Position numbers and translations under genes: made by a program. The notes beneath the pieces were generated by a model, which saw nothing but the letters and a program-made list of their open reading frames with translations, did not search any database and was not told the DNA's origin. A stretch of DNA of 40,351 nt, from positions 1 through 40,351 of IMG/VR virus record IMGVR_UViG_3300021409_000073. One strand, given 5' to 3'. Position 1 is the stretch's first letter. Each line of letters begins with the position of its first letter. The DNA is from a virus. Below, one piece after another: positions 1,078 through 6,710 of the stretch.

Positions 1078-1251
1078 TTACGCCGCAAGCCTTTGTTCCG
1101 GCTCGATTTTCTTCCCCACATACATCAGCACTCGCACGGATTCGCCTGCAAAACCAGGGCGAAACGTGCATTCGCGGGTTGATGTGGTGTTGATGTAGCC
1201 CGGCACCGCTTCTGCTCCTTTATCATCGCTCGTCCAGCATCGAGAGATCAC
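1078..1251 (-). CDS. Possible small protein (57 aa) coupled to the 446-aa retron-neighbour gene
   Basis: A GTG codon (1249-1251) overlaps the TGA stop of the upstream gene as GTGA, the junction type used repeatedly in this window. The frame runs 57 codons to a TAA at 1078-1080. The product has two Cys, a FRPGFAGE stretch and a LMYVGKKIEP stretch; I do not recognise it. No separate Shine-Dalgarno is visible beyond the GGAGG that overlaps the junction. It may be a real small coupled gene, a decayed C-terminal fragment, or chance. Confidence 0.3.
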   Translation of the reverse strand: MISRCWTSDDKGAEAVPGYINTTSTRECTFRPGFAGESVRVLMYVGKKIEPEQRLAA

Positions 1252-2588
1252 CTCCGGTAGCTCTCAAGCCCGAGCTCGGCCCACATCCACGAGAAATCAT
1301 ACTCGGCAATCGGACTCTCGCCATGCCGGGCGCTGCGGTTTTCCAGGTACTTCAGCCAGCCGATCACCTTCTCACGCCCGCCGGCCGTGCGCACGGCCTG
1401 CCGCGGCGACTTGCCACCCAACGCCGGGATCGGCGCGTCCAGCGTTTCGCGGTAATGCCTGTCCAGGTGATCCCGCATCAGCTGGCGAGCGACTTCAGGA
1501 GGGATTTCGTCTGCGGTCTCGCGCGGCCCGTCACGCCGTTGCTCGGCCCGCATCTGCTCAACCGTCCGGATCGTGGTCAACGGTGGCCTCAGCAGATCGC
1601 CGGCAGCCGCGCTGATCAACGCCTCGACCTTTGCCGCGCGCCCGGCCGAGTTGACGGTCACGAGCAGCGTCTTGCCCTTCAGTTCCAGCGAGCCCAGAAC
1701 GGTGGCTCCCTCCATCTGCGTGTCCAGCATGATGCCGCCGCCTGCCTTGCCGCTGCGCCCCTTGCGCGCAGCGAGCCAGTTCCAGAACTTCGGCCCCTCG
1801 GGCAGGAAGTCCTTCACCTCGTCCAGCCGCTGGGCAATCGCCTTCTGTGTCACTCCGCTGGCGAGCGGGAACCGCAGATCGTGGAACAGCACATCATCGC
1901 CGTCCGAATTGGTGAACTGCGGCTGAGCTTGGGTGAGGGCACGGTCGATCTCGATGAACAGCCAGGCGGAGGTGAAAATCGGCGCGCAGCCCAACAGCTG
2001 GTCGCGGGAGAGCCGCAGCGCGTCGCGCTTCTTCAGTTTCAGGGCATCGCGAAGCCCGGCGAAAAGGAAGTCTACCGCCTCGGCGCGGAAGGGCAACAGC
2101 GCCCCGGAGATGACATGATGATCGCGTTCGGGCACCACCCGCACGGCGATCCTGTCCCACTGCTTCAGCGTGCGGGTGGCGGATTTTTCCCGCACCGTGA
2201 CCGGCGGGGCATCCGCAAGCAGATCGCGCAGTACCATCGAGGCGCCGGGCCGGACATCGCTAACCTCGTAAAGGCTGACCGGCGCATCCCGCAGCGCGGC
2301 GAAATAGGCCCGATTCAGCGCCGTTTCCTTCCAGCCGCGCCGCTTCAGGTAGAGATCGACGATGTTCCCGTCGTCATATCGCTGCCCGAGGAAATCCTCG
2401 AACCCGCAGCCCCAGAGCACGCCTGACCATTGCTCACCCAGCAGGTCGGCCACGCCGTCATGGTCGATCTCGAATTCCTCGAGCGCGGGCATCAGATGTT
2501 CGGCGACAACATCCTGCAGCCGTTCGCGCCAGTCACCCTCCCGGCCGATGAAGGCCAGAAGGCTGGAAATGTCATTGCGTTCAGCCAT
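1248..2588 (-). CDS. Unknown 446-aa protein downstream of the retron reverse transcriptase
   Basis: The function is not recognised. It starts at an ATG 22 bp after the reverse transcriptase stop, so the two are probably co-transcribed. A longer frame continues upstream through the reverse transcriptase, but that part is the antisense-like shadow of the coding gene. The middle (about residues 90-170) has the pattern SLYEVSDVRPG ... LRDLL ... WDRIAVRVV, which I associate with conserved uncharacterised bacterial proteins. The C-terminus carries LDAPIPALGGKSPRQA followed by GREKVIGWLKYLE, reminiscent of C-terminal domains of SEC-C-type or Xre/MbcA-type proteins. No catalytic motif or membrane segment is obvious. 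Its position makes it a candidate retron effector or accessory gene, which is inference only. Confidence 0.7.
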   Translation of the reverse strand: MAERNDISSLLAFIGREGDWRERLQDVVAEHLMPALEEFEIDHDGVADLLGEQWSGVLWGCGFEDFLGQRYDDGNIVDLYLKRRGWKETALNRAYFAALRDAPVSLYEVSDVRPGASMVLRDLLADAPPVTVREKSATRTLKQWDRIAVRVVPERDHHVISGALLPFRAEAVDFLFAGLRDALKLKKRDALRLSRDQLLGCAPIFTSAWLFIEIDRALTQAQPQFTNSDGDDVLFHDLRFPLASGVTQKAIAQRLDEVKDFLPEGPKFWNWLAARKGRSGKAGGGIMLDTQMEGATVLGSLELKGKTLLVTVNSAGRAAKVEALISAAAGDLLRPPLTTIRTVEQMRAEQRRDGPRETADEIPPEVARQLMRDHLDRHYRETLDAPIPALGGKSPRQAVRTAGGREKVIGWLKYLENRSARHGESPIAEYDFSWMWAELGLESYRR

Positions 2589-2610: not shown

Positions 2611-3522
2611 CTAACGACCGATCTTTCGTTGGATATCATCGCGCTGGGCAGCCATTGCCTCAGCGCGCACTCGCCACCCTGCATCGATTTGGCTGGCTTC
2701 GAAGAGACGTCCGGTGAGCCGCCTTGCCACCGTGAGCTTCTCGCGACCAAGCGGCAAGTCATCGAACAACTTCTGGTCGTCGGCAATACGGACCTGGCGC
2801 CGGTTCGGCAACCGAAGCCCGTTGTTGGTGACCGCAACCCCGGTGACGATCCGCGGCTGACCGGGCCTGAAGAGCTTGGTCTTGTGCCCCCGCAGACGTC
2901 GTTTTCCGATCACCTTCCGCGCTTCAAAAAGGAGGCGCCTCGTCGCCCCAGCGCCGGTGAACACAATGTCATCGACATAGACCGTCATGTTGCAACCGGC
3001 TGACTCCGCCAGGGCCGCCAGATCGTCGAACATGTCTTCATATGCGAAATACGAGAGGATCGGGCTTGCGCTGCTGCCGGTGGGGAGATGCCCATCCACG
3101 GTCAGGAGTTTTGCGAGGATCCCGGCTACATCTGCAGCACAAGCCATTCGGTCCAGAAAGAAGTGATAGACGGCTTGTGCACGCGCAGAGGGGTAGAACT
3201 TCCGAACATCAATCTTGACACATCCTTCGTCAACGGAATGCGCTGCGGCGTTCGATATGTACGAACGCCCCTTCTTCGCGGAGTGCAGGTAGTCCGGCGT
3301 ATCGATTCTTGCCAGAAGGTTCGCGATCCTCCGATGCACCTGCGCGAGCTTCGGCCTCGGCTCCTGGATCGAGCGCCCGGATTTCTTGTCGACCCAACGC
3401 TTGTAGGGATCGGGTTCGGCCGACAGCGCGTCCAGCTCCGCCCGAGAAAGCTTCAGACGATCCGCCAACATCTGCGGGCTCGTGACCTTGTACAGAATGG
3501 ACTGGTTACGCTGGTAGCTCAC
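2611..3522 (-). CDS. Retron-type reverse transcriptase (303 aa)
   Basis: This should prime from the 2'-OH of a guanosine in its cognate ncRNA and make msDNA. From the GTG start (M/V1) the motifs are: retron region X NAAAH (91-95), motif 3 DVRKFYPS (105-112), motif 4 LPTGSSASP (146-154), catalytic YVDD (182-185) and region Y VTG (226-228). NAxxH and VTG together mark retron RTs rather than group II intron or diversity-generating RTs, and 303 aa is the usual retron size. The GTG at 3520-3522 overlaps the TGA of the Xre gene (GTGA), so translation is coupled. The longer ATG at 3561 would overlap that gene by 43 nt and is less likely. Confidence 0.93.
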   Translation of the reverse strand: MSYQRNQSILYKVTSPQMLADRLKLSRAELDALSAEPDPYKRWVDKKSGRSIQEPRPKLAQVHRRIANLLARIDTPDYLHSAKKGRSYISNAAAHSVDEGCVKIDVRKFYPSARAQAVYHFFLDRMACAADVAGILAKLLTVDGHLPTGSSASPILSYFAYEDMFDDLAALAESAGCNMTVYVDDIVFTGAGATRRLLFEARKVIGKRRLRGHKTKLFRPGQPRIVTGVAVTNNGLRLPNRRQVRIADDQKLFDDLPLGREKLTVARRLTGRLFEASQIDAGWRVRAEAMAAQRDDIQRKIGR

Positions 3523-3827
3523 CGGCTGGCGCCCCTGAACTCGGAAATCGTAGCAGCCCAATCCAGCATCTTCAGCGCCTTGTCAGCGACGTACACCCGA
3601 ATGGCATCAGCCTTTCCGGCCTCATCCACGCGCTCCGCAAAGAGCAAGAGCGACGACATCGGTATGTCAAAGGCAGCCGAGTACTTTTCGAGAACCGCCA
3701 GCGAAACCTTTTTCTCACCGCTCTCGATTTCCGAAACATAGGATTTTGAAAGCCCGACGCGTTCGGCCACGTCAGCCTGTGTCAGGTCATGGTAGACCCG
3801 CACCAGGCGGAGAGCTTCATTCAACAT
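3519..3827 (-). CDS. Xre-family HTH regulator of the retron operon (102 aa)
   Basis: The N-terminal 65 residues form a classic lambda-repressor-like helix-turn-helix (LTQADVAERVGLSKSYVSEIESG). A roughly 37-residue tail follows, with no recognisable enzymatic motif. The ATG at 3827 is preceded by GGGAGAACA. The stop overlaps the reverse transcriptase start. Neighbouring inverted TTCGCCA repeats at 4283-4323, just upstream of the candidate ncRNA, are a plausible operator. Retron loci with an HTH partner are known, and this gene could act as a repressor, an antitoxin or a part of the msDNA-RT complex. Confidence 0.85.
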   Translation of the reverse strand: MLNEALRLVRVYHDLTQADVAERVGLSKSYVSEIESGEKKVSLAVLEKYSAAFDIPMSSLLLFAERVDEAGKADAIRVYVADKALKMLDWAATISEFRGASR

Positions 3828-3855
3828 TGTTCTCCCATCCTCCGCAGTTGAACAC

Positions 3856-4011
3856 CTAGGAGCCGTCTCTGAAGATCAGTCGCGCCAGATACACGATGGC
3901 TTTCACCATCCAGAACGCGACCATCAAGGTCCGACGTTTCCGAAGAACACGCCGGATCCAGCGACGGATCCACTGCCCGGTGCTCAGGGGCTTCACGGGT
4001 TCATGTCCCAT
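3856..4011 (-). CDS. 51-aa hydrophobic, Arg-rich small protein in the retron locus
   Basis: The ATG at 4011 follows a perfect AGGAGG (4019-4024) with a 7-nt spacer, the best ribosome-binding site in this operon, which argues for real translation. The product begins MGHEPVKPLSTGQW, has an arginine-rich amphipathic stretch (WIRRWIRRVLRKRR) and then about 20 mostly hydrophobic residues (LMVAFWMVKAIVYLARLIF). It is probably a single-span or membrane-surface peptide. It lies between the candidate retron RNA and the Xre gene, in the same orientation. A membrane-active toxin held in check by the RT-msDNA complex is an attractive but unproven role. I do not recognise a named family. Confidence 0.7.
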   Translation of the reverse strand: MGHEPVKPLSTGQWIRRWIRRVLRKRRTLMVAFWMVKAIVYLARLIFRDGS

Positions 4012-4085
4012 GTCGCAACCTCCTGGGCTTCCTCGCCGAGACCATCCCGACGAGTGTGCCGCCTTCCCAAGAGGCAATCAGGGCA

Positions 4086-4280
4086 GAGGCTATCTCCTAG
4101 GCGTCCCCGTGCCGCAACGCGAGCTGCGGACTTGAGTCGTCGGGTCGTCATCGCGGATCACATCGCGCGGATGCGATCGCCACGCCCCGAAGTGGGTAGA
4201 GGCCGAAGCCTCCTCGATCGGCGAACCGATCAGCCTGTGGCAGCTATCTCTCACCTGAGCATTGCTCGCTGGATAGCCCC
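4086..4280 (-). ncRNA. Candidate retron msr-msd RNA (~195 nt)
   Basis: On the minus strand, a1 GGGGCTATC (4272-4280) can pair with a2 GATAGCCTC (4086-4094), nine pairs with one G-U. Directly after a1 comes CAGCGAG, giving an AGC branch-site context with the likely branching G at 4269. Stem-loops follow: GAGC-AAT-GCTC (4257-4267), GATCGG-TTCG-CCGATC (4216-4231), GAGGC-TTCG-GCCTC (4199-4212), a weaker CCAC/GTGG hairpin (4180-4195), a 9-bp stem GATCGCATC/GATGTGATC (4156-4178) and CCGCA/TGCGG. This matches the msr-then-msd layout, and the RNA lies upstream of the RT genes as usual. Exact ends and the msd fold are inferred by eye. Confidence 0.68.
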
Positions 4281-4282
4281 AT

Positions 4283-4323
4283 TGGTTCGCCAATGCAAGA
4301 TCAAAATTCGCCATTGGCGAACC
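4283..4323. promoter_or_regulatory. Inverted TTCGCCA repeats, probable operator of the retron locus
   Basis: GGTTCGCCAATG (4284-4295) and CATTGGCGAACC (4312-4323) form a perfect 12-bp inverted repeat. A third TTCGCCA copy (4307-4313) sits between them, making an overlapping inner palindrome TTCGCC-ATT-GGCGAA. The array ends 3 nt upstream of the a1 repeat of the candidate ncRNA, where the promoter is expected. It is a natural binding site for the Xre protein encoded in the same operon. Confidence 0.5.
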
Positions 4324-4664
4324 TGCTATGCACACGCGCTTTATCGGCACAACATTTTGTGCCTGCCTGCTCCTATGATTTTCATCACGGACACCACCTT
4401 ACCAGCTGCCTCTACGAAGCGCGGCAGCGATGACTCGGCGGACAGTCGCAGTCCGCCCCGTGCCACACGACCGATAACGGATACTTCAGAACACCACCAA
4501 GACCGATGTTCATGTCTTGTTCTTAACCCCGCTCTCCGACAAACTGAAGCTAAACCAGAAAGCGAGTCGCTCTGGGCCGACGCACGCGTCCGAGATCAGT
4601 AACCGCGCCGTGCCGCGCGCCGGATTCGGCGTGTCTTGTCAGGGGTTAAAATTGGGGAGGAAAC
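4324..4664. other. Intergenic region between the divergent retron locus and the phage early gene
   Basis: No convincing gene is seen in this 340-bp stretch. It separates the minus-strand retron operon from the plus-strand gene at 4665 and should hold both promoters. It is less GC-rich than its surroundings. On the minus strand, TTGTGC about 18 bp before TAGCAG is a weak promoter candidate for the retron RNA. A good ribosome-binding site (GGGGAGGAAAC) directly precedes the ATG at 4665. Confidence 0.4.
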
Positions 4665-5270
4665 ATGAGGTTACCGCAAAGAGAATACTACACGGTCCAT
4701 GAAATTGCCACGCGCTGGGGCTGCACCATCGCTGACATAGCCGGCTGGTCATCGAAGGGGCGGCTGGACATCGTCACCGGCATCCCGCCGGTCACCTGCG
4801 GGGGTGACATCGTCGCTGGCGAGGTCGTCGTTTCGGCCTTCGACATCCTGCCGATGTTCCGCCGCTGCGGGACCGGACCCCAGTCGGCGTTCGTCCGTCG
4901 CGTCCGGGCCAACGGCTCGACCGACTGGTCGCTGATCACCGACCCCGCGGCGGGTGTCGAGGTCTCGATCGCGGATCTGCTGATCACCGGCCAGCAGGTT
5001 CAGAAGTTCGAGGACGACCACGAGCTGATGCGGCGGATCGCGGGCGGCGCGGGCTCGACCTCACCCTATGACTGGGACGGCATGATGAGCGCGCTGATCG
5101 TGAGGGTCCACGAGAAGGGCCTGCCCGCCACCCAGTCGGAACTGATCGAGGACATGCAGTCCTGGTTCGCCGAGCAGTCGGCCGACGGCCAGTTCCCGGA
5201 CGAACGCTCGATCCGGCGCCGCATCAGCGCGGTCTGGAAGACGCTGTCGCAGTTGCGCCGGAGCGCCTGA
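4665..5270 (+). CDS. Phage DNA-binding protein next to the integrase (201 aa)
   Basis: The N-terminal 40 residues (YYTVHEIATRWGCTIADIAGW) look like a MerR/excisionase-type helix-turn-helix used to choose DNA sites. The C-terminal 70 residues (SELIEDMQSWF ... RSIRRRISAVWKTLSQLRR) look helical and basic. The start is fixed by GGGGAGGAAAC immediately upstream. It converges on the integrase gene, with a shared hairpin between them. Its likely role is an excision or early regulatory factor, inferred from position and fold. I know similar proteins only as conserved hypothetical phage proteins. Confidence 0.7.
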   Translation: MRLPQREYYTVHEIATRWGCTIADIAGWSSKGRLDIVTGIPPVTCGGDIVAGEVVVSAFDILPMFRRCGTGPQSAFVRRVRANGSTDWSLITDPAAGVEVSIADLLITGQQVQKFEDDHELMRRIAGGAGSTSPYDWDGMMSALIVRVHEKGLPATQSELIEDMQSWFAEQSADGQFPDERSIRRRISAVWKTLSQLRRSA

Positions 5271-5274
5271 CGGC

Positions 5275-5295
5275 ACGGACGCAGGCGGCGTCCGT
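5275..5295. terminator. Hairpin between convergent genes (bidirectional terminator)
   Basis: ACGGACGC (5275-5282) and GCGTCCGT (5288-5295) form an 8-bp perfect stem with a 5-nt loop. It lies between the stop of the 201-aa gene and the stop of the integrase. There is no long T-tract, so its efficiency is uncertain. Confidence 0.5.
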
Positions 5296-6572
5296 TACGC
5301 GGACTTCCGGTCGCCGTCCCGATCCCTCTGCCCTTCGCGATCATGGACCAGCGTGGGCTTGGGACGGAACACGCTGGCCACCGCATCGACGCCCGCACGG
5401 AGCGGGCCTTCCATCAGATGGGCGTAGCGCTGGGTGGTCTGCATCTGGGTGTGCCCGAGAAGCTTGCCGATCATCTCGAGCGACGCGCCGCCGCTGACCA
5501 GCAGCGAGGCGAAGGTGTGCCGCAGGTCGTGAATGCGGACGCCCTCGATCTGCGCCTCCTTCTGGATACGGATCCAGAAGCGCCGGATTTCCTTCACGGG
5601 CTGGCCCGGCACATCGCCGGGGAAGAGCCAGGGGTTGCCCTTGGGGACCAGTAGCCGCCGCTGGCGCACGATGGCCGCCACATCCTCGGAAATCGGCACG
5701 CGGTGCACGCGGCGCTGCTTGGTGGTGGCCGCCGGTTTCGACCAGAGGCAGTGTTCCAGATCGAACTGCTCGAACCGGGACTGCCGGACCTCGCCCACCC
5801 GGGCGCCGGTCAGCATGCAGATCCGGATGATGCCCGCCGCGCGCTGATCCTCCGCCGCGTCCAGCGCCCTGGCCAGCTGGTCGATCTCGTCCTTCGACAG
5901 GAAGCGCTCGCGCGGGTTCTCGATCCGGCGAAAGAAGCCGTTCGCGGGGTTGTCCGTGCGCCAGCCCCATTCGATGGCGAGGTTGAACATCTTGCGTAGC
6001 ACCTCGCCCACGCGGTTGGCGCGCACCGGCGTGGGCTTCGGGCCCTGCAGCTTGCGGGCTCGGTTGTTGGGCTTTGCCTTGCTCGGCCGGGCGCGCCCCT
6101 CGGCGATCTTCGCCAGCAGCTTCTCGACATCGGGTTTGGTGATCTCGGTCACGAGCTTCCGGCCCCAGTGCGGCGCGACCAGCTTGGCCAGCATGGATTT
6201 CTGATCGGCCGCGCTCACAGGCGCGAGCCGCGGAACGTGTTCCTTCAGGTAGCGGTCGATCAGATCCTGAAACCGCGGCGCCTCGCGGCGCCTGGAACGC
6301 TCGCCGAGTGGATCGCCCCCGGCATCGACCATGCGGCGCAGCTCCCTGGCACGCTCGCGGGCCGCGGTGACCGACCATTCCGGCCAGCGGGCGAATGTCA
6401 TCCGGCGCTGACGCCCGTCGACGCGGTAGTCGAAGGTGAAGGCCCGCCCGCCGCCGCGATAGATGCAGACGGCAAATCCGCGAATGTCGGCATCGAAGAT
6501 CTGATAGTCCCGCCCCGGCACCGGAACGGCATCGCGCAGGATCTTCTCTGACAGACGTTCGCGGTTCGGCAT
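5295..6572 (-). CDS. int: Tyrosine-type site-specific integrase (425 aa)
   Basis: This catalyses integration and excision of the element by strand exchange at att sites. The N-terminal 90 residues resemble the DUF4102 arm-binding domain of tRNA-targeting phage and island integrases (LSEKILRDAVPVPGRDYQIFDADIRG is split here as LSEKILRDAV and YQIFDADIRGFAV). The catalytic domain shows TGARVGEVRQ (first Arg, near residue 255), HDLRHTFAS (near 345), LGHTQMQTTQRYAHL (His box and nucleophile Tyr, near 380). The ATG at 6572 with AGAGGG upstream is preferred over the upstream ATG at 6599. The tRNA fragment at 991-1037 is the likely att, about 4.3 kb away because retron cargo lies between. Confidence 0.93.
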   Translation of the reverse strand: MPNRERLSEKILRDAVPVPGRDYQIFDADIRGFAVCIYRGGGRAFTFDYRVDGRQRRMTFARWPEWSVTAARERARELRRMVDAGGDPLGERSRRREAPRFQDLIDRYLKEHVPRLAPVSAADQKSMLAKLVAPHWGRKLVTEITKPDVEKLLAKIAEGRARPSKAKPNNRARKLQGPKPTPVRANRVGEVLRKMFNLAIEWGWRTDNPANGFFRRIENPRERFLSKDEIDQLARALDAAEDQRAAGIIRICMLTGARVGEVRQSRFEQFDLEHCLWSKPAATTKQRRVHRVPISEDVAAIVRQRRLLVPKGNPWLFPGDVPGQPVKEIRRFWIRIQKEAQIEGVRIHDLRHTFASLLVSGGASLEMIGKLLGHTQMQTTQRYAHLMEGPLRAGVDAVASVFRPKPTLVHDREGQRDRDGDRKSA

Positions 6573-6656
6573 CGTCAGTGGCCCTCTTCTCGTCTCCATG
6601 ACGCGTGAATTCAAAGCGATAGCAAGGCAATCATGGCCGGTGCCGAGGCGTCGAGG

Positions 6657-6710
6657 CAGCGGCCGGCAGTCACCGGCAGTGACGCTGCCAGAGCGGTGCC
6701 ACCCCAAGAT
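6657..6710 (-). repeat. Copy A of a ~55-bp control-region repeat
   Basis: On the minus strand this reads GGGGTGGCACC (6695-6705 complement), then a short spacer, then GTCACTGCCGGTGACTGCCGG (complement of 6663-6683). It is an inverted counterpart of the copy at 7069-7134. It begins about 85 bp upstream of the integrase start, so it could regulate int. Confidence 0.6.

Follow-up and report, generated by a model that had tools for sequence, protein, structure and literature searches.

Retron reverse transcriptases (RTs) start from a conserved guanosine beside the paired a1/a2 ends of a template RNA and copy the template, a process in which RNase H1 plays a role (PMC8989520). A review lists HTH proteins among the retron effectors (PMC8867640). 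Hok and ZorO are membrane toxins governed by mRNA folding and by hiding of the ribosome-binding site (RBS) (PMC8309996). In the papers searched, neither a mechanism nor a peptide is described for type VI retrons, though earlier descriptions may exist elsewhere. The locus described here is read, with a probability of about 60%, as a hok-like fold-back under reverse-transcription control over a membrane peptide, which would be an overlooked type VI effector.

The window, i.e., the whole stretch of DNA analysed, is a 40-kb viral record (40,351 nucleotides, IMG/VR record IMGVR_UViG_3300021409_000073) and carries all parts of the retron on its minus strand. Two of its genes are assigned by profile searches:

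2611–3522, minus strand: retron reverse transcriptase, 303 aa (PADLOC RT_VI, E = 1.5e-81; Pfam RVT_1, 4.2e-8)
3519–3827, minus strand: type VI retron HTH protein of the Xre type, 102 aa (PADLOC HTH_VI, E = 2.4e-34; Pfam HTH_3, 1.2e-13)

The second-best PADLOC model for the RT was RT_III-A (8.8e-37, against 1.5e-81 for RT_VI), and the motifs NAAAH, YVDD and VTG can all be read directly in its sequence; NAxxH and VTG are marks of retron RTs. The start codon of the RT is better placed at the GTG at 3522, overlapping the HTH stop codon; a start at 3561 was dropped because L005 and L016, two of the related loci, have a stop codon upstream of 3522. The RT clade and the adjoining HTH gene identify a type VI retron, and the comparison of sequences indicates that template RNA, small gene, HTH gene and RT follow one type VI operon order. 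Close relatives were found in Paracoccus, Jannaschia and Poseidonocella and on two more viral contigs; nine aligned loci made up the comparative set, where the RT identity of the homologues is 71–89% (58% for L008). An Rfam scan of the window at gathering thresholds gave no match, and neither did a search of viral contigs with the KS5 RT as query.

Searches of Pfam, PHROGs, NCBIfam and PADLOC matched nothing to a 430-aa protein encoded downstream of the RT (1248–2540, minus strand); its gene was rejected as a retron part, since L002 and L003 are the only loci with a copy (88–94% identical) next to the retron. The retron also adjoins a hypothetical gene (4665–5270, plus strand) and a tyrosine integrase gene (5295–6707, minus strand), relatives of both of which lie beside the retron in L002, L003 and L004 as well; judged from this arrangement, the retron looks like integrase-side cargo. 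The plasmid-borne type VI retrons L059, L060, L064 and L068 adjoin toxin–antitoxin genes (Hok/Gef, ParDE, MazEF, Fst).

A first-pass annotation of this DNA had proposed a retron msr-msd RNA bounded by a nine-pair a1/a2 helix, with the branch G at 4269 and a series of msr-like hairpins. The sequences that it quoted were all found on the minus strand where it had placed them, and a retron with an msr-msd-like RNA was borne out, both by the RT_VI and HTH_VI matches and by a conserved structured RNA at approximately 4263–4080. The proposed ends exist as letters: GGGGCTATC (4280–4272) pairs with GATAGCCTC (4094–4086) in nine pairs, one of them G–U, with CAGCGAGC directly after the a1 strand at 4271–4264, and the minimum-energy structure of 4290–4080 closes on this helix, but the stability of that fold is ordinary (z −0.46, with 62 of 200 shuffles folding as stably). 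Nor does the end pairing stand out, since helices as good, with at least nine pairs and arms at least 150 nt apart, arose in 57 of 300 dinucleotide shuffles (19%). As a conserved boundary it failed: among the homologues 71.8% of cells are paired, with several positions unpaired in at least half the loci; the helix is intact in L002 and lost in most other relatives, an outcome that the annotation itself had named as speaking against its a1/a2. Nor do the relatives conserve the AGC at 4269. The hairpin series survived in part, the two TTCG hairpins being kept with compensating changes while GAGC-AAT-GCTC (4267–4257) is not conserved; the stem near 4178–4156 is present.

What is conserved around the proposed a1 belongs, by comparison, to a promoter:

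4270–4298, minus strand: promoter TTGCAT (4298–4293), 17 nt, TATCCA (4275–4270), from the comparison of nine loci
4307–4321, minus strand: probable HTH operator, inverted repeat TTCGC-N5-GCGAA, with CGC and GCGAA columns invariant in nine loci
4286–4292, minus strand: a further operator half-site, TGGCGAA, which lies within the promoter spacer at a distance of 21 nt from the first, with GCGA invariant in nine loci

Every relative has a TTG hexamer approximately 17 nt upstream of a −10 TA, most clearly L008 (TTGACA-17-TAATCT); a strict consensus promoter scan of the window alone found no promoter, and the call rests on the comparison. Position 4280–4272 overlaps the −10 and varies freely across the nine loci except for the −10 of this −35/17/−10 promoter, and was rejected as a1; an internal GATAGC (4247–4243), considered as a competitor for the earlier a2, became moot once 4280–4272 was taken as the −10. 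The start of the transcript is predicted near 4263, because mean column conservation jumps from 0.53 at 4269–4265 to 0.89 at 4264–4256. The earlier a1 lies on the −10 and upstream of the likely start. An ordinary retron RNA with a1 at 4280–4272, a2 at 4094–4086 and a branch G at 4269, in which the small gene described below takes no part, is very improbable: the helix and its retention in L002 speak for it, and its loss elsewhere, its coincidence with the −10, the frequency of equal helices in shuffles and the variable AGC speak against it.

The inverted repeat TTCGC-N5-GCGAA is probably an operator bound by the HTH protein, judging from the invariant columns, and we infer that this protein is an autorepressor of the retron promoter, because the repeats lie on the promoter; GCGAA half-sites also occur on both sides of the −35 in the gammaproteobacterial loci L027 and L060. 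Upstream of the operator, at 4348–4361 (minus strand), there is a palindrome, CACAAAATGTTGTG, with a similar CAC/GTG palindrome at this place in several relatives; it is possibly the site of another regulator.

The template RNA and its parts were redrawn as follows:

4080–4263, minus strand: template RNA (msr-msd), revised from column conservation and consensus fold
4248–4255, minus strand: revised a1, GGTGAGAG, pairing with 4088–4082
4082–4088, minus strand: revised a2, CTCTGCC, pairing with 4255–4248
4241–4247, minus strand: branch-site region ATAGCTG, with candidate priming G4244 (AGC) or G4241 (YGCCA)
4216–4231, minus strand: msr hairpin GATCGG-TTCG-CCGATC, with both-side changes in four pairs
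4199–4212, minus strand: msr hairpin GAGGC-TTCG-GCCTC, conserved, with both-side changes in one pair
4112–4129, minus strand: hairpin CCGCA..TGCGG in the presumed msd, pairs nearly invariant in nine loci

The pairing of 4255–4248 with 4088–4082 is the better-supported a1/a2, with moderate support: 97.9% of cells are paired in eight loci and one pair is changed on both sides, while the covariation score of this short helix was matched by 43 of 500 shuffles; GAGAG/CUCUC-like equivalents were read by eye in L025, L060 and L065. ATAGCTGCCA stands immediately 3′ of the revised a1. The AGC of the branch-site region hardly varies within the close clade, YGCCA is also found in L025, L026, L060 and L065, and the priming (branch) G is probably G4244 or G4241. 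The revised branch site and a1/a2 mirror the known retron plan (PMC8989520). The first-pass annotation thus had the right RNA with the wrong ends, and missed that this RNA runs on into the leader of a small gene (3856–4011), which pairs with the 3′ end of the RNA.

Between the template RNA and the HTH gene there is a further reading frame:

3856–4011, minus strand: unannotated small gene, 51 aa, MGHEPVKPLSTGQWIRRWIRRVLRKRRTLMVAFWMVKAIVYLARLIFRDGS, with ATG, Shine-Dalgarno sequence and basic/hydrophobic character retained across about 33 loci of type VI

The frame of 51 codons has a full Shine-Dalgarno sequence, and the peptide is basic in its N-terminal half and hydrophobic in its C-terminal half; its structural model is a single helix over residues 11–50 (mean pLDDT 75). 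The hydrophobicity of some of the peptides is modest (15-residue Kyte–Doolittle mean of 0.75–0.9 in L025, L026 and L059). The window peptide has no family in Pfam, NCBIfam or PADLOC; the gene is annotated as hypothetical in some records, and its phage version is found in PHROG 15287/5826, with function unassigned. Nearly every intact type VI locus examined, be it on a phage, a plasmid or a chromosome, has a counterpart gene 24–66 nt upstream of the HTH gene; the loci come from Alpha-, Beta- and Gammaproteobacteria and from Bacillota (Enterococcus, Staphylococcus), and thus range from Paracoccus to Enterococcus. A strict rule accepts the small gene in 31 of 33 type VI loci but only 1 of the 232 other gene starts there. 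The search found no separate small gene in L068, and L070 is too short to judge; at 987–1481 of L068 (Aeromonas salmonicida) the HTH protein is annotated as longer (165 aa), which may reflect a fusion or a misannotation. Among the complete E. coli genomes, 98 of 5,426 contain most of the cassette of the P2-like phage P2_2H1. In L034, L035 and L037, whose retron RTs are more distant and whose HTH matches are weak, a small upstream protein ends in a hydrophobic helix; by this likeness, the small peptide may not be confined to type VI.

Identity to the window peptide drops to 5–30% between subfamilies, so that its character, rather than its sequence, is what is conserved. Between the window and L005, dS is 0.41 in the small gene and 2.1 in the HTH gene; the low value indicates constrained synonymous sites, as expected where coding and an RNA fold overlap, and the dN/dS of approximately 0.5–0.75 in distant pairs is inflated partly by the depressed dS. 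Such strong synonymous constraint could also be expected of an untranslated frame conserved for RNA structure alone, but the ATG, the Shine-Dalgarno sequence, the frame and the basic/hydrophobic composition are kept across phyla at very low identity, differences in gene length between loci are multiples of three and the strict rule separates the gene from other starts, making this explanation extremely doubtful.

The existence of a second small protein beside the RT bears on which of the two might be the effector. The HTH protein might itself be the effector or a partner of RT and msDNA, with the peptide as an auxiliary (regulator, anchor or antitoxin); it is the accessory protein by which PADLOC defines type VI, and the review cited above counts HTH proteins as retron effectors. 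Against this, the HTH protein has the look of a small autorepressor, the promoter carries operator-like repeats, and the peptide, which occurs across loci no less constantly than the HTH protein, looks like known membrane toxins. We regard the HTH protein as an unlikely effector, although this is the strongest of the competing explanations, and prefer the peptide in that role.

The RNA around the small gene contains two conserved folds:

4019–4074, minus strand: hairpin hiding the small-gene RBS, CCTCTTGGG (4074–4066) with CCCAGGAGG (4027–4019), and an apical 9-bp stem
4094–4106, minus strand: 5′ arm of a long-range helix, GGACGCCTAGGAG, shortly before a2 at the 3′ end of the presumed msd
3850–3862, minus strand: 3′ arm of the long-range helix, CTCCTAGGTGTTC, covering the stop codon of the small gene

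In the hairpin, of which CCCAGGAGG is the RBS strand, 100% of cells are paired and five pairs of the apical stem show compensating changes in 13 cells; its covariation score was reached by 0 of 500 shuffles. The fold-back of 4106–4094 on 3862–3850 comprises 13 bp plus 5 bp, with all cells paired in the nine loci and compensating changes at two pairs. By comparison, the locus has two features of type I toxin–antitoxin mRNAs, namely the RBS-hiding fold and the long-range closure.

In other subfamilies, the 5′ arm lies approximately 82–101 nt upstream of the start codon and the 3′ arm at the stop codon; the counterparts measure 14 bp in Sphingobium and 12 bp in L052, and in L029 and L031 they consist of GGTTAGGAGT/ACTCCTGACC against GGTTGGGAGT/ACTCCTAACC. 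When the 5′ arm of each of 27 loci was set against the 3′ regions of the other loci, the cognate pairing score of 20.6 exceeded the permuted score of 16.4 (sd 0.58), and 0 of 20,000 permutations reached the cognate value; the result was again 0 of 20,000 without the clade of the window, a duplex-energy version agrees, and three shifted control windows gave no excess of cognate pairing. L017, L018, L061 and L062 have no convincing long helix at the expected place, and the claim holds for the family, not for each member. That the template RNA can fold onto the end of the gene in the window and in most relatives suggests that DNA synthesis controls a toxic peptide.

In thermodynamic folding calculations, removal of either arm in general left the accessibility of the RBS unchanged (mean opening cost of 4.2 kcal/mol in all three cases), and an RBS-opening mechanism is not claimed; the fold-back may instead act on mRNA stability or on HTH/RT translation, or sense ribosomes at the stop codon. 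An alternative pairing of CCACAGG with CCTAGG (4240–4234 with 4101–4096, minus strand) joins the msr to the 5′ arm and excludes the fold-back helix. These observations touch on an explanation in which the arm helix, rather than locking the peptide, mainly controls HTH/RT translation or senses ribosomes at the stop codon of the peptide; ribosomes engaged in translation would then release the end of the msd so that the RT could copy it. In its favour, most loci have the 3′ arm at the stop codon and a short way before the HTH start, and a short stretch of the msr is an alternative partner for the msd end, but the covariation of that pairing is weak (its score was reached by 112 of 500 shuffles), and we consider this explanation less likely still than an HTH effector.

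The preferred reading, control of a membrane peptide by the fold-back, builds on elements demonstrated by comparison of loci, namely the type VI identity, the conserved small gene, the RBS hairpin and the fold-back helix. A single promoter, probably repressed by the HTH protein, would yield a transcript with the msr-msd RNA, the small-gene leader, the peptide, HTH and RT, so that the template RNA would form the 5′ leader of a toxin-like mRNA. By analogy with Hok and ZorO, the peptide would be a membrane toxin that folding of its mRNA keeps silent: the hairpin over the RBS would hold its translation down, and the helix joining the 3′ end of the msd to the stop-codon region would close the transcript. 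Should the RT prime like those of other retrons, msDNA synthesis would start just upstream of a2 and copy the 5′ arm first, and RNase H would then remove the copied arm RNA; msDNA synthesis and the fold-back would thus be mutually exclusive in one molecule. The direction of control is a guess guided by other retrons, in which RT and msDNA serve as the antitoxin: the peptide would be silent under normal RT and msDNA synthesis, and their disturbance during phage infection would release it. More tentatively, and with less than an even chance, the reverse transcript itself may be the switch of the toxin mRNA, the cell reading the state of reverse transcription through translation of the toxin; the new DNA end, having the same sequence as the mRNA arm, could then compete for it. 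If the preferred reading is true, the hidden peptide is a candidate effector for type VI, whose listed effector is an HTH protein, and the fold-back would tie reverse transcription to translation; in the papers searched, such control between template RNA and toxin mRNA is described for no other retron.

With the type VI retrons as defined in PADLOC (RT_VI plus HTH_VI), the locus shares the RT and HTH models, the HTH gene preceding and overlapping the RT gene and the structured RNA upstream; the peptide gene, the hidden RBS and the fold-back helix are additional here, and no PADLOC model fits the peptide. From the loci compared, these three features seem to belong to type VI as a whole and not to this locus in particular, and the peptide gene and fold-back look like so far undescribed features of the type. 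PHROG families 15287 and 5826 hold the homologous peptide of P2-like phages, with no retron link in the library. With the type I toxin–antitoxin systems hok-sok and zor-orz, the locus has in common a small hydrophobic peptide, a hidden RBS and control by mRNA folding (PMC8309996); unlike in those systems, no antisense RNA gene was identified, the Rfam scan of the window giving no match, and the players include an RT, a template RNA and an HTH regulator; the likeness is one of working, not of demonstrated membership. With Eco1, Eco2, Eco8 and other characterised retrons, it shares an a1/a2-bounded RNA, a conserved G that follows and an adjacent RT; the effectors of those retrons are held, according to the papers cited here, by protein–RNA–DNA complexes, whereas here the template RNA is joined to, and predicted to pair with, the mRNA of the candidate effector.
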